Shown: positions 1 through 16,284 of the stretch, in pieces
How positions within the stretch are numbered: position 1 is the first letter of the stretch
How the letters are laid out: each line of letters opens with the position of its first letter
IMG/VR virus record: IMGVR_UViG_3300048009_000431
Location: 1 to 33,906 of that record
Direction: 5' to 3' (one strand)
DNA: 33,906 nucleotides
Origin: a virus
The notes under the pieces: model-generated
Seen by the model: only the letters and a program-made list of their open reading frames with translations
Databases searched by the model: none
Told to the model about the DNA's origin: nothing
Made by a program: the position numbers and the translations under genes

Positions 1-676
1 GCCATGTTTCTACGTCCTCTGGTGAATTTATTTCTACTCCATTATATTGTACACTCAAACAGCCAATATTACAACCGTTTTTTAACCAACGGAGTTGTTC
101 TAATTGTTCTATAGTTTCCTCTTCTGGAACAGCAAGGCTAGGGTACATTTCTAATGCTTTACGTTTGTATCCGTATATGCCTAAGTGCCAATCACCGTAT
201 CCTGTAATACCTCTAGCAAACCATAGTGCTTGATCTCCAGCACGTATCATCTTAACTGTATTAGGATCACCTTGCATACATGGAGGCATATCTGTAAATG
301 CTGTTGTTACTTGATAATGTTTTAATTGATGGTATACACTTTGTATCATATAAGCTGATACGTCAGGCATATCGCCTTGCACATTAATAAATTGGTCATA
401 CTTTTTTAGTTTGTCCCATTTAGTAATAGCACCTGCACATCGTTCAGTACCGTTCTTATAAGGTGCAATATGTTCTTCTTCGATCCAACATACTTCAGGA
501 CCAAACCTGTTAAAGATACGCATGTCGTCTGTTAGAACATATGTATCAATGCCAGACTTACGACATTGTTCGTACACCATACGTACCATTGGAATGTTAT
601 GTAGTGGTGCTAGTGGCTTTCCTGGAAAACGTGTACTACCGTATCTAGCGGGTATAAGAATAGCTGATGATGTCAC
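1..676 (-). CDS. kdsB: 3-deoxy-manno-octulosonate cytidylyltransferase (CMP-Kdo synthetase), C-terminus cut by window edge
   Basis: KdsB activates Kdo with CTP to CMP-Kdo, the donor for Kdo transferases in LPS and capsule assembly (known for the family). About 225 codons are visible. Translating the minus strand from a GTG at 676-674 gives the nucleotide-binding signature IPARYGSTRFPGKPLA near the N-terminus, then YVLTDD, GTERCAGA, NVQGDMP, and near the edge a SVQYNGVEINSPEDVETW-like end, all in the family order. Full-length KdsB is about 250 residues, so roughly 15-25 residues lie outside the window. The GTG start is supported by a strong GAGGAGG ribosome site 5-6 nt upstream (plus-strand 683-689). 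It overlaps the end of kdsA by 32 bp, so the two are probably translationally coupled. Identity is very likely; donor specificity is inferred from the family. Confidence 0.93.
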   Translation of the reverse strand, partial: MTSSAILIPARYGSTRFPGKPLAPLHNIPMVRMVYEQCRKSGIDTYVLTDDMRIFNRFGPEVCWIEEEHIAPYKNGTERCAGAITKWDKLKKYDQFINVQGDMPDVSAYMIQSVYHQLKHYQVTTAFTDMPPCMQGDPNTVKMIRAGDQALWFARGITGYGDWHLGIYGYKRKALEMYPSLAVPEEETIEQLEQLRWLKNGCNIGCLSVQYNGVEINSPEDVETW

Positions 677-1418
677 GTACTACCTCCTCAAAGTCTTTTA
701 GGTATAGCATGTTAGGTCCGTCACTTGGTGCTACATCAGGCTCAGCATGTACTTCCATAAAGAAGGAGTCGATCCCAATAGCAGCCCCAGCACGAGTGAT
801 CCCAGGCACATAATTACGATTACCGCCACTAGAGTCACCTTGTCCTCCCGGCTTTTGTACGGCGTGAGTACCATCCAACACGATAGGCACATCATAATTA
901 TCAAGCATATACTGTAGACCAGTGAAATCCACGACAAGAGTATTATATCCAAAACTAGTTCCTCGTTCAGTTATCCAAACTTCTTTTGCTTCTTCAGTTT
1001 TACTTATCACACCTTTCATATCCCAAGGCGCCATAAACTGGCCTTTCTTAATATTAACAATTTTATCTGTAGCACAAGCTGCTTGTATTAAGTCAGTCTG
1101 TCTACAAAGAAATGCTGGTATTTGATAAACGTCAACAGCATCTTTAAACTCACGTTCAATACGGTTTACTTGTACGTAGTCGTGTACATCAGTTAGTGTC
1201 TTTACACCTAGTTCTACTTTAAGTGCTAAGAAGTCTGTTAGTGTTGTTTCTAATCCTAGACCACGAACACCATTTGCGCTTGTACGGTTAGCTTTATCGT
1301 AACTTGCTTTGAAGTAGTATTCAATGCCGTACTTGTCACATACTCGTTTACACTCTTTAGCAATCTCTAAACTTTGTGGTAATGATTCGTGCTGACATGG
1401 TCCTGCAATTATTCTCAC
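645..1418 (-). CDS. kdsA: 3-deoxy-8-phosphooctulonate synthase (Kdo-8-phosphate synthase), metal-dependent type
   Basis: KdsA condenses arabinose-5-phosphate and phosphoenolpyruvate to Kdo-8-phosphate, the committed step to Kdo. The 257-residue protein carries the hallmark blocks IAGPC (residues 4-8), FKASYDKANRTS (36-47), PAFLCRQTDL (101-110), NIKKGQFMAPWD (122-133), ERGTSFGYN (151-159) and DGTHAVQKPGG (182-192). Cys8, His185, Glu222 and Asp233 match the four metal ligands of metal-dependent KdsA enzymes such as that of Aquifex; the metal-independent E. coli type has Asn in place of the Cys. The length is close to the family norm of about 260-285. The start is GTG at 1418, with AAGGAG 8 nt upstream and a 4-bp GTGA overlap with the preceding gene's stop. 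It lies directly upstream of kdsB. No arabinose-5-phosphate isomerase or dedicated Kdo-8-P phosphatase is visible here, so these steps may use host enzymes. Confidence 0.97.
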   Translation of the reverse strand: MRIIAGPCQHESLPQSLEIAKECKRVCDKYGIEYYFKASYDKANRTSANGVRGLGLETTLTDFLALKVELGVKTLTDVHDYVQVNRIEREFKDAVDVYQIPAFLCRQTDLIQAACATDKIVNIKKGQFMAPWDMKGVISKTEEAKEVWITERGTSFGYNTLVVDFTGLQYMLDNYDVPIVLDGTHAVQKPGGQGDSSGGNRNYVPGITRAGAAIGIDSFFMEVHAEPDVAPSDGPNMLYLKDFEEVVRDIISYSYTR

Positions 1419-1639
1419 TTACAACACTCCTTACAGTTACAATCACGTATAATAAAATGTACTAGTGCCATTGTAAACCACATCCAAGTCATTTCGCCAA
1501 TGCCTAATAATGTATTATTATGTGTCGTCATTTCGTGTTCCATTGCCGCACCTGCACCCATTGAAGGTGGCATTAAGTCTGGTATTAAAAAGTATATTCC
1601 TAATAGTAAGAATAGTACGCCTGCTAATTTATGTCTCAT
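1415..1639 (-). CDS. small two-helix membrane protein with Met/His-rich loop and Cys-rich tail
   Basis: Family not recognised. Starting at the ATG at 1639 the product is 74 residues. It has a first hydrophobic segment at about residues 5-22 (AGVLFLLLGIYFLIPDLM), a connecting loop rich in Met and His (M23, M27, M33, H35, M37, H40), a second hydrophobic segment at about 49-65, and a tail with the cluster CNCKECC (Cys 67, 69, 72, 73). The arrangement suggests an inner-membrane hairpin that could bind a soft metal; that is inference. The start at 1639 is preferred because it makes an ATGA overlap with the oxygenase stop; an in-frame ATG at 1654 lacks a ribosome site. Its own stop overlaps the kdsA start (GTGA), so it is part of the same coupled operon. 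Confidence 0.7.
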   Translation of the reverse strand: MRHKLAGVLFLLLGIYFLIPDLMPPSMGAGAAMEHEMTTHNNTLLGIGEMTWMWFTMALVHFIIRDCNCKECCK

Positions 1640-3010: not shown

Positions 3011-3361
3011 CTACACTTCGGACCCTGCTGTACGCCTTACGATATCATCGTGATTGAATTCTGCCCAGTATAGCTCAAATGCTACACCATCTTCTAAGCC
3101 TTCAAACTGATGTATCTTGCCTGGCTTAACTTGTGTAAAGTCTCCTGCTTCAAGAATTGTTTCATCTAACAGTCCTTGATCCTCTTGCCAAACACGTACA
3201 ATCATTTTGCCTGATTCTACAAAGAAGCCATTCCATTTAAACTGGTGTTCATGTTCTGAACATTTATAGCCTGCTTTATATTCTATACGGTGAAACTCTA
3301 GTACACCGTTGGCATGTATAAGCTCTGTTGATCCCCATACTTTACCTGCTTTTATTCCCAT
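3011..3361 (-). CDS. small single-domain cupin
   Basis: The 116-residue protein has both cupin motifs: G-x5-H-x-H (GYKCSEHEH, residues 31-39, His37 and His39) with FVESGKMIVRV following, and GDFTQVKPGKIHQFEGL (73-89) with His84 and the typical P-G-x2-H turn. Cupins of this size include sugar-nucleotide epimerases, isomerases, dioxygenases and binding proteins, so no reaction can be assigned. It begins the tightly packed set that continues through methyltransferase, oxygenase and kdsAB, 10 nt after the preceding unknown gene. The start ATG at 3361 is preceded by an AGGAGAA ribosome site. Confidence 0.87.
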   Translation of the reverse strand: MGIKAGKVWGSTELIHANGVLEFHRIEYKAGYKCSEHEHQFKWNGFFVESGKMIVRVWQEDQGLLDETILEAGDFTQVKPGKIHQFEGLEDGVAFELYWAEFNHDDIVRRTAGSEV

Positions 3362-6599: not shown

Positions 6600-6628
6600 A
6601 TTATAGCGTATTATAGTTTTGATGTCAA
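6600..6628 (-). promoter_or_regulatory. sigma70-type promoter for the 409-aa/uvsW unit
   Basis: On the minus strand a perfect -35 TTGACA (6623-6628) is separated by exactly 17 bp from a perfect -10 TATAAT (6600-6605). It covers the end of the preceding glycosyltransferase-like gene and the 36-nt gap before the TTG start at 6574. Predicted transcription start is near 6593. It is expected to be read by unmodified host RNA polymerase early in infection. Confidence 0.85.
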
Positions 6629-7483
6629 GTGTTTTAATGGGTAACCTGCAGCTATTTCATGTGTGCTGTACTCAGTATGTGCAAGGTCATTAAGCCATTG
6701 CGTTCTGTCAGGTCTTATAGGGTTGTTTATTTGTTTTATGTCATGTTGTGCTACATCATATGCTAAACTACTAGGCCCTACAAACGCTGGCACACCTTGT
6801 AGTATTGCTCGTATAGCAGGGTTACTACTCCAACTAATAACAGCATATGCATTGGACATATCAAAGTCAAAGTCGTCATATGTTGCGTTATCACGTACTG
6901 GATTTTGTACTTTTACATCTTTGTATTTGTCTGAAAAAGGAGGTATTAAACATCTTGGGTGCGGTCTTATAATAATTTGTTTATCAGTACGTTTACGTAT
7001 AATCGACAAAGTTTTATCTAACCATTTGTCTTGTGGCGGCATATTTGCCCACTGTTGACTTTTGTTATGTTGCAAACAAATAACAATTGGTCCGTCTTCA
7101 TTGTTTGTCCATGGTTGCAATTTTAAACCTAACATCTTTGCACGTTCGTCAGTGTTATTCTTAGGAGCAAAATAAGCATCTCTATTAATGCCGTTTACTC
7201 CTACTTTCCACATAGTACCTCTGTTTAATGCCCCTACTTCTAACACAATTACAGGTTTACCTAACATGCGATTTTGTTCCCAAACTGTTTTGTTATTTGC
7301 CATACGACCGTTCCATAACACACTCCATATAACAGCAACGTCATAATTATCGTAATGATCGAATACTCTATAAGGTTCATTATAGATAACGGTGTGGCCG
7401 GCATCAGCAACACTCTTAGCGAATGCATGGAATACAGGTTGGCTGTTTAGTGCGCCATAATCAGTGTATAAGCAGAAAATCAT
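6611..7483 (-). CDS. capsule/Kdo-transferase-like glycosyltransferase, paralog A
   Basis: A 290-residue GT-B-like protein. The C-terminal half has RTDKQIIIRPHPR (about residues 165-177), then DFDMSNAYAVISWSSNPAIRAILQGVPAFVG, followed by AYDVAQHDIKQINNP. This R-x-H-P plus N-A-x-x-V-[IV]-[ST]-[WY]-x-S plus G-[VI]-P-x-[FY] layout recalls the Capsule_synth family that includes the beta-Kdo transferases KpsC and KpsS. Three further genes in the island share the layout, so they are diverged paralogs. Substrate is inferred, not shown. This is the most divergent copy: it has Trp in place of Tyr in the V-x-Y-x-S motif and lacks the Trp-rich end of the others. It starts at 7483, divergent from the plus-strand glycosyltransferase, with AGGA about 11 nt upstream. 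Confidence 0.78.
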   Translation of the reverse strand: MIFCLYTDYGALNSQPVFHAFAKSVADAGHTVIYNEPYRVFDHYDNYDVAVIWSVLWNGRMANNKTVWEQNRMLGKPVIVLEVGALNRGTMWKVGVNGINRDAYFAPKNNTDERAKMLGLKLQPWTNNEDGPIVICLQHNKSQQWANMPPQDKWLDKTLSIIRKRTDKQIIIRPHPRCLIPPFSDKYKDVKVQNPVRDNATYDDFDFDMSNAYAVISWSSNPAIRAILQGVPAFVGPSSLAYDVAQHDIKQINNPIRPDRTQWLNDLAHTEYSTHEIAAGYPLKHLTSKL

Positions 7484-8369: not shown

Positions 8370-8893
8370 AGTCTACGTTTGCCTGCTTCGTATCCATCAA
8401 GTATTACTTTTACACTTTTAAAATGATTAGTTAACCAAGCAACTTGATCAGGTACCATACTTCCTTTGCCGTGTGCTTCAAACACACATACTTTAGGATC
8501 AAGGTGTGTAATTATTTCTTTCCATGTAGGAACCCATTTTGCTATTGCTAGTGCAAATAATATATCTGTTTTAGGCAAATTATATTTTTGCCAATTGTTT
8601 AAATCTGCAACACTAAAACTAACATTGTCAATATTATTTTCTTTTGCTAAATTGTTTGCAAAACTAATTGCATCAGGATTAATATCACAGCCCCAACCTT
8701 GTTTAATTTGATCTGCAACAGCAAACATTGTACCGCCACAATTACAACCTAAGTCTAATAGAGTTTTATCTTTAAAGTCAATAGGCATTGCTTGTATACG
8801 TTCTAATGGATCACGTGAACCTTCTGATATTAGTTTACCTTTGTAATAAATTTTAGTATAATTATTTGTAAATTTACTATAGTGCTTGGCCAT
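8351..8893 (-). CDS. class I SAM-dependent methyltransferase
   Basis: A 180-residue methyltransferase with motif I TLLDLGCNCGGTMF (residues 44-57), acidic residue after strand 2 in GWGCDINPDAISFANN (67-82), and a motif IV-like LPKTDILFALAIAKW (111-125). It lacks the long C-terminal extension of larger families; the substrate is unknown. The start at 8893 has AGGAA upstream. It overlaps the preceding kinase-like gene by 17 bp and so is cotranslated with it; its 3' end overlaps the plus-strand glycosyltransferase antisense by 19 bp. Confidence 0.86.
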   Translation of the reverse strand: MAKHYSKFTNNYTKIYYKGKLISEGSRDPLERIQAMPIDFKDKTLLDLGCNCGGTMFAVADQIKQGWGCDINPDAISFANNLAKENNIDNVSFSVADLNNWQKYNLPKTDILFALAIAKWVPTWKEIITHLDPKVCVFEAHGKGSMVPDQVAWLTNHFKSVKVILDGYEAGKRRLYLCVQ

Positions 8894-9419
8894 ATTTCCT
8901 AATTCCTTTTTCTAGTATATCGTCCCTATACCATATACGATTGTCGAACGTTTCGAAGTACTGTGTATATCTATTTAGTATCCAGCCCCAACCGCCTCTT
9001 GTTTTAAACTTTGAATATTTCTTTTGTAATTTTGTAGTTAATGTCTTTTCGTCTATTGCAACTTTTTCAAAATCTATAAAAGAAAGTTTGCCATTTTGTA
9101 GTAATATATTACCTGGATGACAATCTAAATGTACAATGTTTTGTTCTTTACAAGCATCGATAAAAGTTCTAACTTGTTGTACTGGGTTATCTATTATAAG
9201 TTTTTTACCTTGTCTTTTTTGTACTGCTGTTAAGATAAACAAACTTGTTCCTGCATATGCTGTTGTTATTGTTAAGTCTTTTTCGTTGGCATTAATTAGA
9301 TTAGGAACATTATCGCAAGACTGTAATCTACGATAACACTCTACTTCATTAGACCAAAAGTCCTTTGTAAGTCTATGTCTTGTAACATCATGCACCGTTA
9401 TATTTTTCCCATTTAACAT
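8877..9419 (-). CDS. small kinase-fold protein resembling Kdo/lipopolysaccharide core kinases
   Basis: The protein shows the catalytic loop HLDCHPGNILL (residues 97-107 from the ATG at 9419; Asp in HxD, Asn in GN) and the metal-binding IDFE (115-118) of eukaryotic-like kinases, with the H-x-D-x-H-P-G-N spelling common in LPS core/Kdo kinases and aminoglycoside phosphotransferases. At about 180 residues it is short: the N-lobe is abbreviated and no glycine-rich loop is obvious; a candidate lysine lies in RHRLTKDFWSNEVECYRRL. It could phosphorylate a sugar or be an inactive relative. The start is uncertain: ATG 9446, ATG 9419 or GTG 9395 are in frame, and it overlaps the HAD gene stop. The context of Kdo genes favours a sugar substrate; this is inference. 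Confidence 0.68.
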   Translation of the reverse strand: MLNGKNITVHDVTRHRLTKDFWSNEVECYRRLQSCDNVPNLINANEKDLTITTAYAGTSLFILTAVQKRQGKKLIIDNPVQQVRTFIDACKEQNIVHLDCHPGNILLQNGKLSFIDFEKVAIDEKTLTTKLQKKYSKFKTRGGWGWILNRYTQYFETFDNRIWYRDDILEKGIRKYGQAL

Positions 9420-10614
9420 TCTTATTAGTAAAATTATGTGTATCATATAACTTAACTAATTCTGTCAATAAGTTTGTATCTTTTTTAAAATTAAAATGTC
9501 TTATATAACGTGTAGCGGCTTGACCTGCTTTTTTATGTATGTCTGCTACATCAGCAGGATGATCATTATTGCCTCTTATTGGACCATTTTCATTCCAATC
9601 TACAATAGGACCTTCTTCAAAACAATTATGTTTTTCCATACTTTTTGTTTGGTAGTTTACTAGACGTGTTACATATGGTGGAGGCTTTCCTCCTATGTAT
9701 GTTGTGCTTGGAGGATTACCATTATAAAAACTTTGTATACTACGACCTTTACCTTGCATATCTACAATAGTTGCGCCTATATCTTTAACAAACTCCATAT
9801 ATTTTGCAAAGTGTTCGTTTGGTGTAAGATACATTTTACGTGATACATCTAGTCTGTGACCTTGCTTACCAGTCATTGCTTCGTATATCTTTTGCCAGTT
9901 ATAACAATCTCTATATGTAAATGCAATAGGTGTATCAGGTAATTCTAATGTTGCTAATGCTAGTACAGGTAAGTTAATATTTGCTTGATCGTTCCAAAAT
10001 TTAATATGTCTTTCATCGTTGAATGGACACATCAATCTTACACTACGCATCCAACATGCAAGTTGTCTATCGTACTTGTAAACAAAGTTTTCTATATCGT
10101 TAAGTTTGTATCCTGTGTACAGTACACCATTTATGCCGTGTGCTTGTGCAGACTTAACATCGCTTTTTTCATTGTCACCGTAGTGATTATCGATGTTATA
10201 GTTTTCATTTATACTATCCCAAATCCAACCTTTTTTCTTGCCGTCTGCTGTAACAACTATCTTTACATCTGCTGTTAGTCCGGCATTACGTAACATTTTC
10301 ATTATGAAGTCTGCTGGCAAGTACATGTCGCTTATCAATAGATCTCCGTCTTTAACCTTCATAATATTTTCATATATAGGAAAGTTATGTTCAAACTCTA
10401 CGTCTAATTCTACTTGTGGATCGTACTCAGTTAGTATGTCATATATCTCTTTGTAGGTTTTATCAGTGCATGTTTTCTTAACTTGTTTCCATGCAGATAT
10501 ACGTTTGTCTTTAAAACTTGCATCACCTATTCGACTACTTACTTCGTCAAAAATAGAGTGCGGATGGAAATGTAATCTTCCAATTAGTGTATCAAAGACA
10601 TCCCATGAATTCAT
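9388..10614 (-). CDS. HAD-superfamily hydrolase-like protein with long C-terminal region
   Basis: The 408-residue protein starts with WDVFDTLIG (residues 4-12), a HAD motif I with Asp5 as candidate nucleophile and Asp8 as acid/base, then LLISDMYLPADFIMKML (motif II, Ser/Asp near 92-95), VVTADGKKKG (motif III lysine region) and YGDNEKSDVKSAQAHG (motif IV DNxxSD). All four HAD motifs fit the group often embedded in bacterial polysaccharide loci. The remaining half, from about residue 195, is unrecognised. It could be a sugar-phosphate phosphatase; whether it serves as Kdo-8-P phosphatase cannot be told, and it does not look like a normal KdsC, which is about 180 residues. The ATGA overlap (4 bp) with the upstream methyltransferase indicates coupling. 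Confidence 0.82.
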   Translation of the reverse strand: MNSWDVFDTLIGRLHFHPHSIFDEVSSRIGDASFKDKRISAWKQVKKTCTDKTYKEIYDILTEYDPQVELDVEFEHNFPIYENIMKVKDGDLLISDMYLPADFIMKMLRNAGLTADVKIVVTADGKKKGWIWDSINENYNIDNHYGDNEKSDVKSAQAHGINGVLYTGYKLNDIENFVYKYDRQLACWMRSVRLMCPFNDERHIKFWNDQANINLPVLALATLELPDTPIAFTYRDCYNWQKIYEAMTGKQGHRLDVSRKMYLTPNEHFAKYMEFVKDIGATIVDMQGKGRSIQSFYNGNPPSTTYIGGKPPPYVTRLVNYQTKSMEKHNCFEEGPIVDWNENGPIRGNNDHPADVADIHKKAGQAATRYIRHFNFKKDTNLLTELVKLYDTHNFTNKNVKWEKYNGA

Positions 10615-11296: not shown

Positions 11297-12247
11297 TTAA
11301 TCCTTAAAGTATACTTGCTTCAAATGAGACCAACATTCACCTGTTTGTACGTCCTCTTTGTTCCACATAGAATATGCAATCTTGTTTTTCCATTCCTGCA
11401 AATCTATATCGTAATTTAAATTTTCTATTTGTGATAAATCTGTGTGTGCTACTGGATATGCCATACTTCCGCCATCTAGTGCAAACACTGGTATGCCTCT
11501 TACTACAGCTTCTACTCCGCTCAAACTGTTATATGTAACAACACAATGAGCATTTCTTAGATCTGCATCTAGTCCTTCTCCGCCTTGTGATCCACCTCTT
11601 GTTAAGTTTTGACTCATTGAGATATTTTTAACATTTACCTCTTGCAACATCTTATTAACAAATTTTGCGCCTCTATCTAAGTTACGAGGATGTGGTCTAA
11701 TAACTATAGGACGATCGGTGTATTGTCTAATAAGTTTACATTGTTCTGCAATGTAGTCGTATATACTTGCATACCCTGCTTTGTATATACTTACCAAACT
11801 ACTGTCACCTTCTTTTTGTCCCATTATTAATATATTCTGACCCGGGCTGTGCCAGTCTTTAAATTTTAATCCTGTGAGGCTTTGGAATCTATTCCATCTT
11901 TCAGGACCTACATTCTCATTATTCCAGTTAGCATCGCACCAACGATAGCTATTCCAGCCAAATCGTAACCAGCCAGGACATTCACGAAATGGTTCGCTTT
12001 CACTGACTATGTAAGGTTTGTTTGCTTGCTGTATGTGTAGCATATACTTGCCGTGCCAAGCGTGTCTGCCGCCATGTAGGAACTTTGGCTTTAGTTCGTT
12101 TGTTTGGTAATAAGCATCAGCTCTACGCACAGTTTTACTAAGCAAGTCGTCACATACCACATATTGGTCGCCAACTCTTTCCATACCTTTTGCCCAATGA
12201 AAATAAGGCTTTGATGCAGGAGGGGGAAACCCTACCATTGTTATCAT
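11297..12247 (-). CDS. capsule/Kdo-transferase-like glycosyltransferase, paralog B
   Basis: A GT-B-like protein of about 316 residues. Its C-terminal half has YTDRPIVIRPHPRN, DADLRNAHCVVTYNS, GVEAVVRGIPVFALD, then AYPVAHTDLSQIENL and a tail with W-x-N-K-E-D-V-x-T-G-E-x-W. This is the clearest copy of the four-member paralog set. The family resemblance is to Capsule_synth/KpsC-KpsS type Kdo transferases (RxHP, then a Ser/Glu-containing donor-site region). Start chosen at ATG 12247 because it makes the ATGA overlap with the stop of paralog C; the longer frame to 12271 would overlap by 28 bp. Tandem arrangement with paralog C points to local duplication. Confidence 0.8.
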   Translation of the reverse strand: MITMVGFPPPASKPYFHWAKGMERVGDQYVVCDDLLSKTVRRADAYYQTNELKPKFLHGGRHAWHGKYMLHIQQANKPYIVSESEPFRECPGWLRFGWNSYRWCDANWNNENVGPERWNRFQSLTGLKFKDWHSPGQNILIMGQKEGDSSLVSIYKAGYASIYDYIAEQCKLIRQYTDRPIVIRPHPRNLDRGAKFVNKMLQEVNVKNISMSQNLTRGGSQGGEGLDADLRNAHCVVTYNSLSGVEAVVRGIPVFALDGGSMAYPVAHTDLSQIENLNYDIDLQEWKNKIAYSMWNKEDVQTGECWSHLKQVYFKD

Positions 12248-13158
12248 ACGTAATCTCTCATGTGTGCCCATGCCTCTCCCGAACTTAGCTCGTCAAAGTT
12301 CCAGTGACACATAGCAAGTTTTTCTATCCAATCTTGTCTTTCAAATGTTTGCGGAGTTTCTATTGTAGACAAATCTGTGTTTGCAACAGCATGTGCTTGA
12401 CTAATACGAGGATTAGGATCTGTAACATACGTAGGTATGCCTTCGATAACACTTGCAACACTAGGACTGCTGTTGTACGTTATAGTGCAATGTGCGTTGA
12501 GTAAGTCCTGTGTTAGTCCAGGTGCTGTACTTACTTGCCAATCTTTGCTTTTAAGATACTTAGGTGCATGTTTGTCTCCTGGGTGTCCTCTAACAACAAT
12601 AGGCCTATCTGTATGCTGTCTAACTTCGTTAATTGTGTTCTTTAACCAACTAACAACATCAAGTCCGCCCATACTCCAGCCGCCATTACGTTGTGTACAT
12701 ATCAATACATGTACACCCGATTGACGCCAATCTTTCATTTTAATACCAAGATCTTTGCGTATTTGTGTCCAACGTTTTGGGTTAACTGTGTCTTGAAAGT
12801 AGTTACCTGTTGTAGGGAATACACCGTCCATGCTGTATCGTAAATATTGCATGTTGTGCATTTTTCCTACAGCATAGTTAAAAAGATTACTGTCAGCAAT
12901 AAAACTATGTTTACCTTTGTTTATGTTTTGCTCATGGGCACGTTTACGTAAAATTAAATGTTGACTAGATGGACTGCCTGCATGTACCCACCCTTGTATT
13001 AAATTAACGTCACTGTCGATTATATTATTACCATAATGTAATATACCTTTGTCGCCGTGTTTTTGTACGCCGTCAATATATCTTTTTAATATATCTACCT
13101 TATGTGGGTTCTTGTGTGGGTTTGGTATACCCGATGCATATCCTACTACTGTCTTCAT
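12244..13158 (-). CDS. capsule/Kdo-transferase-like glycosyltransferase, paralog C
   Basis: About 304 residues. The shared blocks are TDRPIVVRGHPGD (RxHP), QDLLNAHCTITYNSSPSVASVIEGIPTYV and AHAVANTDLSTIETP, ending in W-x-N-F-D-E-L-x-S-G-E-A-W-A-H-M, closely paralleling paralog B. The N-terminal half differs and starts MKTVVGYASGIPNPH. The start at 13158 is chosen for the ATGA overlap with the pyruvyltransferase stop; an upstream in-frame start at 13179 has less support. Role proposed as transfer of a Kdo-like or capsule sugar, on the basis of motif layout and of kdsAB in the same genome; acceptor unknown. Confidence 0.8.
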   Translation of the reverse strand: MKTVVGYASGIPNPHKNPHKVDILKRYIDGVQKHGDKGILHYGNNIIDSDVNLIQGWVHAGSPSSQHLILRKRAHEQNINKGKHSFIADSNLFNYAVGKMHNMQYLRYSMDGVFPTTGNYFQDTVNPKRWTQIRKDLGIKMKDWRQSGVHVLICTQRNGGWSMGGLDVVSWLKNTINEVRQHTDRPIVVRGHPGDKHAPKYLKSKDWQVSTAPGLTQDLLNAHCTITYNSSPSVASVIEGIPTYVTDPNPRISQAHAVANTDLSTIETPQTFERQDWIEKLAMCHWNFDELSSGEAWAHMRDYV

Positions 13159-14072
13159 AATTGCTGTATTTTCCGCCAATGATTATTGTTTGCATCTCTA
13201 CATTCTTGTAATGCCTCGGGGTATGTTGCAACACTGTCTAACAAGTATTCAAAGTTATCTTGAGGATTTATAAATGTTACTCTATGCTTTAGTGTATGGA
13301 ATTTACTACTCCAAGGTCCTGCTACAATTACTTTTTTACCAAGCAATGTACCCCAATATGCACCGTGATAACTGTTTGTTATAATAGTATTTGCACTAGC
13401 TAAAAGTTCAATAGTTTGCTCCATGTTAGCACCACTATTAATATATCTTGGTATTGGTGTTTTTCCAAAATGGTTTGATTTTATTAATTGCTTTTTATGT
13501 TCGTACCAAATTATATCATTTTTGATTCTATAATTTTTATCAAATGCTGCATCTAAACAACTTGCACAAGGTACCCATTCGAATGGTTGACCAAAATCTC
13601 TTACGCCAACTAAATCAAAATTACTTAACCAATCTGGCCACTCAGGTCGTTTAACTCTTTTATTAGTATCTTGGTTATGTCCTGCTCCCCATACAATACG
13701 TGGTGCTGTACTGTTGTCTAACTTGTCTAAATATTCTTTTACAAGTGGTTGTAATTTGCGTAAAAATCCATCACGTGCTTCTATATTATTGTGATTTACA
13801 ACATTCCAAGACTCTTTCCAAAGTGTCATTAGTGCATTTTGATCACTATTGTTAAGAGCATACTGTAAGTCATTTCCTAGGAAGTCATTTGCAATAAGGC
13901 CACCGCCTCCTGCAATTAACGGGACATCGCTTGGATAGTTGTCTGTTGCAAGATCTAATATATCTACTACTTGGTATTCGTGTTCCGGCAAATAATATTG
14001 CAACGGGTTACTTGACATATCACCGAGATTGTTTTTATCAGCTCTATGAACTACTACGTACTTAACTGCCAT
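13155..14072 (-). CDS. polysaccharide pyruvyl transferase-like protein
   Basis: The 305-residue protein matches the PS_pyruv_trans family by the N-terminal NNLGDMSSNPLQYYL (residues 14-28), the GGGGLIANDFLGNDL block (55-69), VWGAGHNQ (128-135), and the C-terminal ITNSYHGAYWGTLLGKKVIVAGP (231-253) containing the family's S-x-H-G motif. Members transfer pyruvyl ketals from phosphoenolpyruvate to sugars of capsules and exopolysaccharides, adding negative charge. Length is close to the family norm of 300-400. The start at 14072 has a strong GGAGG about 7 nt upstream and overlaps paralog D by 11 bp. Confidence 0.88.
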   Translation of the reverse strand: MAVKYVVVHRADKNNLGDMSSNPLQYYLPEHEYQVVDILDLATDNYPSDVPLIAGGGGLIANDFLGNDLQYALNNSDQNALMTLWKESWNVVNHNNIEARDGFLRKLQPLVKEYLDKLDNSTAPRIVWGAGHNQDTNKRVKRPEWPDWLSNFDLVGVRDFGQPFEWVPCASCLDAAFDKNYRIKNDIIWYEHKKQLIKSNHFGKTPIPRYINSGANMEQTIELLASANTIITNSYHGAYWGTLLGKKVIVAGPWSSKFHTLKHRVTFINPQDNFEYLLDSVATYPEALQECRDANNNHWRKIQQL

Positions 14073-14853
14073 AATGTTCCTCCATTATCATGTCGTGAGC
14101 TGTTCCATTTTTCATTTCGCCAATATGAAACTGACCATACGCTAGGTGGCATGCCCAACTGTATATATACTCTTTGTCGTATCGCTCTGGGTTTTCTAAA
14201 TTGTACAAATACTTATTTGCAACAGGATCAGCGGCTGTAGGAGCAAGTGTAAATGCTGGAACTCCATACAGTACACTTTCTACAGCGGCAATACTTTGAT
14301 ATGTTACCATTGCAAATGCATTGTCTAACTCGTTGTATATAGTATTTGTCATTCGTATATGTCTTGGTGGTTTTTCTCTAATAACAATAGGACGATCAGT
14401 ATGCATTTTGATTTGATCTATTGTTTCTTGTTTCCACTGTTCTGCGTCTATACCATAATACTTGCAAGGTTTTTCACTAGGCATAACAAGTAAAATGTTT
14501 CGTCCTGTCTTCTTTCTTTTTGCAATTTTCATTCCTAGTTGTTCCCATCTATCACTAGGACGTTCAATTATTGCATTATGTTGTAGACCGTTTCTAACTA
14601 TACGATGAAATATTTTCCATCCACCTTCATTTATTGGACTTTTGTAATTACCAAGGTAACCACTGTCCATATAATAAAACTCTCTTTTAGTTTCTAAACA
14701 TTTCCAGATAAGTTTTCGCTTTGCTAAACTACGTATTAGTATAGGTTCTTTTTTATTTTCGTGAGCATAAGTGTAGTCATATATAGGAAGTTTTGCTCCT
14801 TTGGCATACATGTTTACATACTCATCTGTTTTGTTTTTACTTAAACATATCAT
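14062..14853 (-). CDS. capsule/Kdo-transferase-like glycosyltransferase, paralog D
   Basis: About 263 residues from the ATG at 14853. It contains TDRPIVIREKPPRH, where the RxHP signature reads R-E-K-P, so the conserved His is replaced by Lys. It then continues like the others: NELDNAFAMVTYQSIAAVESVLYGVPAFTLAP, DPVANKYLYNLENPE, and a tail with G-x-A-H-D. The loss of the His may mean altered or lost catalysis. In-frame ATGs at 14877 and 14904 would extend it deeper into the preceding glycosyltransferase gene; the 14853 start overlaps that gene by only 17 bp and has a GGAAA-type site upstream. Start uncertain. Confidence 0.75.
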   Translation of the reverse strand: MICLSKNKTDEYVNMYAKGAKLPIYDYTYAHENKKEPILIRSLAKRKLIWKCLETKREFYYMDSGYLGNYKSPINEGGWKIFHRIVRNGLQHNAIIERPSDRWEQLGMKIAKRKKTGRNILLVMPSEKPCKYYGIDAEQWKQETIDQIKMHTDRPIVIREKPPRHIRMTNTIYNELDNAFAMVTYQSIAAVESVLYGVPAFTLAPTAADPVANKYLYNLENPERYDKEYIYSWACHLAYGQFHIGEMKNGTAHDMIMEEHYGS

Positions 14854-15508
14854 ACAATTCTTGTTTCCATAATTCATTAAACTCACAATCGCGATAATTT
14901 TCAAACCACGGGCCGCCTTCAGTATAATGAATTAATTTAGGTTTTTCAATATCGTTGTACACACCTACTAAGTAGTTCCATGTATGATCTAGTTCGCCAA
15001 TTTCTTCATCTTGTAGCCAACTAAACCTATGAAAGTATGCACCATTTAATTCTAAACTGTTAACTTGATCTTGGTCAACAACTCTATTACTAGGATGACC
15101 ACAGTTCCATAACACAACACTTGACCAGTTCTTACGTGGATAGATAGTTTGCTTTTGTCCATCCATCTTAATACCTTCTTTAGGTGTGTAATCATGTTGC
15201 ACACACATAACAGCATACTTGTCATCTGCTTGATCAAATAATTCTTTAATGTCTGTGGTAAGGATCATATCGCAATCCATAAACACTGCCCAACCTTTGA
15301 AGTTAGTAAGCTCTGGCACAAGAAAGCGTGTAAACGTAAATTCTGTTGATGCGAGTTTATCTTCAGGACGCTTGTACCATCCTGCTTGTCTTAATTCTTT
15401 TTGTACTAATGGGCGTACATCTGCATCAGGTTGATGCTTTAATATGCTATGCTTACACACTTGGTAAGCCATATCTTCTCTTGGGTCGTAGCCTATGAAT
15501 ACTTTCAT
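14837..15508 (-). CDS. GT8-like glycosyltransferase with DxD motif
   Basis: A 223-residue GT-A protein: MKVFIGYDPRED at the N-terminus, AVFMDCDMILTTDI (residues 74-87) with the DxD pair D78/D80, VVLWNCGHPSN, DHTWNYLVG and the C-terminal IHYTEGGPWF (His and Gly that in GT8 enzymes contribute to metal/donor binding). It resembles the GT8-like glycosyltransferases common in marine T4-like phages. Donor and acceptor unknown. Its ATG shares one base with the stop of the cytidylyltransferase-cupin gene (TTAATG), so the pair is coupled. Confidence 0.88.
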   Translation of the reverse strand: MKVFIGYDPREDMAYQVCKHSILKHQPDADVRPLVQKELRQAGWYKRPEDKLASTEFTFTRFLVPELTNFKGWAVFMDCDMILTTDIKELFDQADDKYAVMCVQHDYTPKEGIKMDGQKQTIYPRKNWSSVVLWNCGHPSNRVVDQDQVNSLELNGAYFHRFSWLQDEEIGELDHTWNYLVGVYNDIEKPKLIHYTEGGPWFENYRDCEFNELWKQELYDMFK

Positions 15509-16284
15509 TAATCTCTTCTTTCTATATCTTCTTCAACACACTTTTCACCAAACTGTACTTCAATAACATGTGCTGGTACATCTTTATTATTCATTGCCTT
15601 GTGCCATACGTTACTACCAATATTGTAACTATTAGTTAATGCAGGCAACTCAAACCCTGAAATAGGGTCGCCTTCAATTTGAATAGCCATAGTTACTTGT
15701 CCTTGTGTAACATACCACATCTCTGATCTATATTTGTGTCTTTGATCGCTTAGACTTTTGCCAGGAAGTATTACAAGCTCTTTGACTTTGTATCCTTTTT
15801 CAGGTTGATCATCTAATACTCTATACCAACCCCAGTTTCTTACAGTTTTTGGATTCTTCCATTCTTCAAGTATCCAACTACTTGAATTCATTTTGTGTTC
15901 GCCGCCAACGCCAAATACAAATTCTACATTTGGCATATCACCATATGTTTTATATTCAGGTGTTGTTGTGTTAGTTCTATCTCCGCCATTGGCAAAGATT
16001 AATTCAATGTTGCTATGTGTACTAAGTGTTTGAAAGATTGCATTACATGCACTATCATCTTCATCGTTAAATCCTATAACTTGATCAACAACGGATAGTT
16101 CTTCTATAATAGAACATCTTTCATGAAAAGGCATAAAGTGTTTGCCTTTCTTTCTAGCAAGCCATTCGTCTGAGTTAACACCAACAACTAATTTGGTGCC
16201 AAGTTTTTTTGCTTCTTTAAAGTAGGCGATATGCCCTGAGTGTAGTGGATCAAAGCCACCAGTGACTAATACAATGCGTTCCAT
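15508..16284 (-). CDS. cytidylyltransferase-like / cupin (type II mannose-6-P isomerase-like) fusion
   Basis: A 258-residue two-domain protein. Residues 1-145 are a nucleotidyltransferase of the HldE/TagD/RfaE-C type: GGFDPLHSGH (9-18) gives the HxGH active site, with MNSSSWIL (132-139) as the counterpart of the I-S-S-T/S nucleotide motif. Residues 150-258 are a cupin like the C-terminal domain of type II phosphomannose isomerases: RVLD, VKELVILPGKSLSDQRHKYR, SEMWYVTQG and VWHKAMN, with His183, Glu188 and His228 as likely ligands. The pair could activate and isomerise or bind the same sugar phosphate. A late-type element CATAAATA ends exactly 5 nt before its ATG and no ribosome site is visible, so a leaderless late mRNA is predicted. 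Confidence 0.9.
   Translation of the reverse strand: MERIVLVTGGFDPLHSGHIAYFKEAKKLGTKLVVGVNSDEWLARKKGKHFMPFHERCSIIEELSVVDQVIGFNDEDDSACNAIFQTLSTHSNIELIFANGGDRTNTTTPEYKTYGDMPNVEFVFGVGGEHKMNSSSWILEEWKNPKTVRNWGWYRVLDDQPEKGYKVKELVILPGKSLSDQRHKYRSEMWYVTQGQVTMAIQIEGDPISGFELPALTNSYNIGSNVWHKAMNNKDVPAHVIEVQFGEKCVEEDIERRD

Follow-up and report, generated by a model that had tools for sequence, protein, structure and literature searches.

A viral kdsA-kdsB pair and Kdo-transferase-like paralogues in a marine phage: a candidate CMP-Kdo supply module

We favor, with modest confidence, an explanation in which an overlapping kdsA-kdsB pair of a marine phage constitutes a viral CMP-Kdo supply module feeding a KpsS/KpsC-like transferase of the same virus, here called GTa, which would in turn act on a surface glycan. 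The pair is carried by a 33.9-kb linear IMG/VR fragment (33,906 nucleotides; the window, meaning the whole stretch of DNA analyzed), the phage origin of which is secure and which also encodes a terminase, a UvsX-type recombinase, a tail sheath protein and a helicase; the nearest annotated-phage relatives of the terminase and recombinase are jumbo T4-like phages of Pseudomonas, Sinorhizobium and Agrobacterium. In lists of auxiliary genes, the LPS and capsule genes of viruses usually appear one at a time with no use stated. In the present case KdsA and KdsB, which would make the donor, occur alongside a transferase with QXXXD and HP motifs that could plausibly consume it, and the combination recurs in hundreds of marine viral sequences; the long-standing "lock-out" idea of phages rebuilding the host surface thereby becomes directly testable. 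Large marine phages of this group can probably assemble or modify a surface sugar that contains Kdo while they infect.

The kdsA-kdsB pair and its products

The features at and near the pair are as follows.
2-676, minus strand: kdsB, encoding a KdsB-type cytidylyltransferase (CMP-Kdo synthetase); GTG start, continuing past the end of the window at its 3' side
645-1418, minus strand: kdsA, Kdo-8-phosphate synthase; GTG start, 257 aa
645-676, minus strand: 32-bp kdsA/kdsB overlap, from the coordinates
683-689, minus strand: kdsB ribosome site GAGGAGG, from the sequence; inside kdsA
1427-1432, minus strand: kdsA ribosome site AAGGAG, from the sequence
3011-3361, minus strand: small cupin, the steadiest neighbor of viral kdsA, with a homologue at every one of 44 long viral loci

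Window KdsA scores 334.9 bits against NF003543 (cut-off 242) and 322.1 bits against TIGR01362 (cut-off 314), both curated KDO8P-synthase equivalogs, and its best matches in the PDB are KDO8P synthases (E 3.7e-74), with DAHP synthases far behind. The KANR[T/S] motif, which tells these two synthase families apart, occurs in 72/72 dereplicated viral KdsA sequences. The protein carries Cys8, His185, Glu222 and Asp233, exactly the ligand set that a preliminary description of this DNA had named, and these metal-binding positions are likewise invariant in all 72 viral relatives. Metal-dependent KdsA enzymes have a Cys ligand that is replaced by Asn in the metal-independent class; with the four ligands and the KANR motif both invariant across the viral set, viral KdsA is expected to be of the metal-dependent class. 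The KdsA alignment shows a gap at Cys8 in 26/80 cellular rows, which we attribute to start-codon choice at extraction.

The truncated kdsB frame is complete in a second record, L001, which is 99.95% identical to the window over 6.4 kb, runs on into more phage genes and encodes a full-length KdsB of 231 aa (L001:5743-6438). The best-matching families of the protein are all KdsB and its best PDB matches are KdsB as well (E 1.5e-25), but it falls under every curated NCBIfam KdsB cut-off, the full-length protein included (TIGR00466, 110 vs. 155.2; NF003952, 159.8 vs. 193). The positions conserved in cellular KdsB that we scored (R11, R16, K20, Q100-G101-D102, H164, E193-Q194, R196 and D221) are kept in 28/28 viral KdsB. 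We therefore do not count it as a curated member, and regard it as probably a divergent KdsB-type enzyme that would make CMP-Kdo. A NeuA/NeuB or Kdn-type reading was considered and rejected, as the best model matches, like those in the PDB, are to KdsA and KdsB instead; the sole other model match listed for the cytidylyltransferase is PseF, at E 4e-7 vs. 1e-46 for KdsB. A PHROGs search returned no match for either protein. Together, these results make both enzyme family assignments well supported and uphold the earlier reading of a phage-encoded Kdo pathway pair, with genes of T4-like jumbo-phage type on its flanks.

The overlap of 32 bp and the ribosome site of each gene, both noted previously, are borne out by coordinates and sequence alike, and the same -32 overlap is repeated in 43/93 non-redundant viral kdsA-kdsB pairs. 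A Shine-Dalgarno-like site precedes kdsA in 79 and kdsB in 57 of these 93 pairs, as opposed to 6% of random positions. This excess, the recurrent overlap and the equivalog scores of KdsA together indicate that the pair is no product of chance, and translation of the two overlapping genes is probably coupled. In nearly all viral loci retrieved, kdsB lies on the strand of kdsA and close behind it. With strict patterns, a scan of IMG/VR gave 256 KdsA relatives; looser patterns raised this to at least 561, both counts taking in redundant records. One virome study lists kdsA and kdsB as common viral genes (PMC10653327). Viral CMP-Kdo supply had been called unusual, a view that these hundreds of relatives overturn: the viral kdsA-kdsB pair is a common viral trait and no oddity. 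At the sequence level, dN/dS values of 0.12 for kdsA and 0.14 for kdsB show purifying selection on both viral genes.

The sampled IMG/VR KdsA sequences all group together in a single clade (support 100/100), the stem of which measures ~1.2-1.5 changes per site, and viral KdsB is likewise a single clade (SH-aLRT 99, stem 1.35). In the KdsA tree an alphaproteobacterial MAG neighbors the viral clade (92/87), which favors Alphaproteobacteria as the putative cellular source, but AU tests reject neither a grouping of viral KdsA with SAR11 (p 0.505) nor one with non-alphaproteobacteria (p 0.394). Recent capture from a sequenced host finds no support, since, among the matches listed, the nearest cellular KdsA is at most 58% identical, a figure obtained with search patterns that came from the viral alignment. 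The depth of the clade suggests that viral KdsA is a resident viral trait and not a recent capture.

As to the lineage itself, a cyanophage reading was also discarded, psbA/psbD being absent from 21 viral records, and a search for tRNA genes as a host clue found none in a 236-kb relative record. That same record (L371:15911-19023, record positions 215911-219023) holds, upstream of its own GT island, a GDP-mannose-dehydratase-like gene and a NeuA-like cytidylyltransferase, both recognized by eye and both lacking from the window.

The Kdo-transferase-like paralogues and the glycan island

The window further encodes four capsule-like proteins that are mutual paralogues (E 7e-36 to 6e-12); the residue numbers given for GTa are those of a 323-residue model with the start Met omitted.
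6611-7483, minus strand: GTd, GTa paralogue (26% identity, E 3e-17); retains HP, has Ser in place of the QXXXD Asp
11297-12271, minus strand: GTa, retaining beta-Kdo-transferase-like; QXXXD at Gln151-Asp155, HP at His193-Pro194
12244-13179, minus strand: GTb, GTa paralogue (33% identity, E 7e-36); retains HP, has Gly in place of the QXXXD Asp
14062-14904, minus strand: GTc, GTa paralogue; both motifs lost; 27% identity to GTa, E 2e-12

A profile of the four paralogues matched nothing in the PDB by sequence, so we turned to a fold search, for which two of the four, GTa and GTd, were modelled. The AlphaFold2 model of GTa (pLDDT 93.3) has KpsC, KrkA and WbbB as its top matches among 350,542 PDB chains, with a TM-score of at most 0.56 and ~13% identity to these Kdo transferases; for the less good model of GTd (pLDDT 81.8), the top 22 matches are WbbB/KpsC/KrkA. 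TM-scores to retaining beta-Kdo transferases are moderate in both cases (at most 0.58). Enzymes of the KpsC, WbbB and KrkA type have their Asp nucleophile in QXXXD and share the HP motif (PMC10148158, PMC12887879); for KpsC, where this residue is Asp160, +220 Da adducts have been published on variants of it (PMC10148158). GTa presents the two motifs as QKEGD and RPHP, and throughout the family they are well kept: Q in 43/44 and D in 39/44 members, H in 43/44 and P in 41/44. Position Glu90 of GTa, a sequence-level candidate for the acceptor-side general base (Glu66 in KpsC), holds E in 39/44 members and D in 4/44. The Asp-to-His spacing of 38 in GTa is that of 10/10 bacterial KpsS-type homologues examined, the spacing in most KpsC modules being 34, and hhalign gives a profile match to bacterial KpsS-type proteins at 92% probability (E 6.7e-7) in which QXXXD and HP are aligned. 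Against PF05159, however, GTa scores 17.3-17.4, just under the cut-off of 20, and at E 0.01 this model matches only 5/44 family members. The earlier identification of four Kdo-transferase-like genes therefore stands in part: the folds of GTa and GTd best match beta-Kdo transferases, but the catalytic Asp is kept only in GTa and is missing from GTb, GTc and GTd. That GTa would use CMP-Kdo as its donor is moderately supported.

Of 28 viral kdsA records, 23 contain the transferase family, each with 3-5 matches that usually lie within ~15 kb of kdsA. In the reverse count, kdsA was found in 10/24 GT-bearing records, in three of them at a contig end, and the family also occurs in records without detected kdsA, one of them of 270 kb; viral kdsA and the GT family are thus associated yet separable. 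Outside this set, BFVD holds four proteins of Tetraselmis virus 1, an algal giant virus, with the GTa fold (A0A2P0VNK4, A0A2P0VP54, A0A2P0VP72 and A0A2P0VP74; TM 0.61-0.70), and one GTa-fold protein of Caulobacter phage CcrColossus (K4JVV7).

The glycan island of the window is bordered by structural and by replication genes of the same strand. Its contents include methyltransferases, a 2OG oxygenase and further modifying enzymes, in addition to three more genes.
13155-14072, minus strand: polysaccharide pyruvyl transferase-like (PF04230, 31.3 bits, cut-off 25.3)
14837-15508, minus strand: GT8-type glycosyltransferase (PF01501, 29.8 bits, cut-off 24.3)
15508-16284, minus strand: fusion of an HldE/RfaE2-like nucleotidyltransferase and a mannose-6-phosphate-isomerase-type cupin (PF01467 and PF01050 over cut-off; phrog_7878)

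A 189-aa kinase-like protein (8877-9446, minus strand) gives weak matches to APH and RIO1 and scores 20.2 against the LPS kinase family PF06293 "Kdo" (cut-off 21.3); phosphorylation of a sugar in this glycan is a possible role. Downstream of kdsB in L001 (7542-10649) are a sulfotransferase-like protein, assigned by eye and with no match in a Pfam search, an APS-kinase-type protein (PF01583), a nucleotidyltransferase-like protein and a full-length serine hydroxymethyltransferase (E 5e-149). The sulfotransferase-like and APS-kinase-type genes hint that the phage may sulfate a glycan.

Supply and use of CMP-Kdo

A search of 17 viral records (32-236 kb; possibly fragments) detected neither KdsD (TIGR00393) nor KdsC (TIGR01670). 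On this evidence the host would supply both arabinose-5-phosphate and the phosphatase. The marine alphaproteobacteria that we looked at encode KdsA themselves and in most cases KdsB as well. It had been proposed that host CMP-Kdo is limiting, absent or in need of synthesis after host shut-off. The absence of KdsD and KdsC from these records argues against a host wholly without a Kdo pathway, so that this part of the proposal finds no support, and boosting or post-shut-off supply fits better.

In the explanation that we favor, we infer a course that runs from enzymatic activity to benefit. KdsA, of the metal-dependent type, would convert host arabinose-5-phosphate and PEP to Kdo-8-phosphate, a host phosphatase would remove the phosphate, and the KdsB-type enzyme would then make CMP-Kdo, a short-lived donor. 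GTa, at least, would move Kdo onto an acceptor among the surface glycans of the infected cell, possibly with help in this step from the island's remaining sugar-modifying genes. The phage would probably gain by having the surface polysaccharide kept or altered while host synthesis is shut down, for example to exclude other phages. Counted against this explanation are the KdsB scores under the cut-offs, the moderate TM-score and low identity of GTa and its place below the PF05159 cut-off, the loss of the Asp in three of four paralogues, and the occurrence of the GT family in records without detected kdsA. A broader claim, namely that a donor-plus-transferase unit has been kept over deep divergence in a marine phage lineage and specifies a viral Kdo glycan on infected cells or virions, we put forward only tentatively; the dedicated viral Kdo glycan suggested earlier remains plausible but unproven.

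The pair could instead merely boost the host pathway, with the extra CMP-Kdo passing to host WaaA and KpsC/S and keeping ordinary LPS or capsule production going through a prolonged infection, and with the phage GT-like proteins acting elsewhere. We consider this unlikely, though it deserves serious attention: since the phage carries only KdsA and KdsB out of four pathway enzymes, KdsD and KdsC not having been found, the module must connect to a host pathway, and the kdsA and kdsB of the examined alphaproteobacteria would be in keeping with such a role. Against it speak the KpsS/KpsC-like family in most viral kdsA records, usually near the pair, and the preservation of QXXXD and HP in GTa. A second alternative places Kdo on the virion itself, as a capsid or tail glycan and hence as a dedicated viral glycan; the position of the island between structural and replication genes on one strand is compatible with it, and we rate it as quite improbable. 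No more credit is due to a reading in which the substrate of the KdsB-type enzyme is a related 3-deoxy-ulosonic acid, such as a modified Kdo, and its product is not plain CMP-Kdo. The divergence of KdsB, its scores, its long stem and an island equipped with an oxygenase, methyltransferases and other modifying enzymes would suit such a substrate, but the conserved KdsB positions are kept without exception, kdsB adjoins a gene whose product makes the Kdo precursor, and the PseF model is far weaker than KdsB. Finally, the notion of functionless passengers, put forward for LPS genes of large phages as "stuffer DNA" (cited in PMC9529941), is disfavored and highly improbable given the low dN/dS, the invariant active sites, and a linkage and overlap conserved across wide divergence. 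DNA hypermodification was also considered as a use of Kdo, and we found no evidence for it.

Comparison with known systems

Viral KdsA resembles the bacterial metal-dependent KDO8P synthases (Aquifex type, PDB 1fwn; 3fs2) in its full-length alignment, its Cys/His/Glu/Asp ligands and its KANR motif, but stands in a clade of its own on a long stem. The viral gene order, kdsA and then an overlapping kdsB, differs from that of bacterial loci where both genes are nearby, in which kdsB is mostly upstream of kdsA. The viral cytidylyltransferase shares with KdsB/KpsU its best family match and the conserved positions; unlike them, it lies below the curated cut-offs, is shorter (about 221-231 aa) and forms a separate clade. 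GTa, in turn, has its best PDB folds and its QXXXD and HP motifs in common with KpsC (GT107), WbbB (GT99), KrkA (GT140) and KpsS, and its D-H spacing with KpsS in particular, yet it is a single module of ~320 aa with ~13% identity to them and a subthreshold PF05159 score, and its three window paralogues are without the Asp.

Both KdsA and KdsB are also encoded by Synechococcus phage S-SCSM2R (PQ898602) and the 462-kb uncultured phage LR756500, the KdsA proteins of which are ~38-40% identical to window KdsA; in the trees, their KdsA and KdsB alike fall on separate long branches. In S-SCSM2R the two genes are convergent, unlike those of the window, and the GTa family was found in neither genome. 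In LR756500, kdsA and kdsB lie close to a KpsF/KdsD-like isomerase domain (412-aa frame, 159 bits, below cut-off), which would amount to a fuller Kdo pathway. S-SCSM2R carries psbA and psbD besides its KdsA and KdsB. Marine Synechococcus LPS is reported to be without Kdo.

As far as their available text goes, several studies treat viral kdsA or kdsB as LPS-type auxiliary genes: the two are among the commonest LPS genes of surface viromes (PMC10653327), a complete 179-kb T4-like genome encodes Gmd, WcaG, ManC, NeuA, KdsA and WaaG and is discussed with citation of the lock-out hypothesis (PMC5332604), and kdsB and kdsA are mentioned as viral genes elsewhere (PMC9529941, PMC11018836). The same portions of these four papers describe no clade analysis, overlap or link to Kdo transferases, and our literature search, with most subscription journals outside it, found neither a connection of viral kdsA/kdsB to retaining Kdo transferases nor a description of the viral clade. 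Viral kdsA and kdsB were thus already known; what appears to be new is the set of GT paralogues that accompanies them in the window, members of a family that, as modelled, best matches the folds of retaining beta-Kdo transferases.
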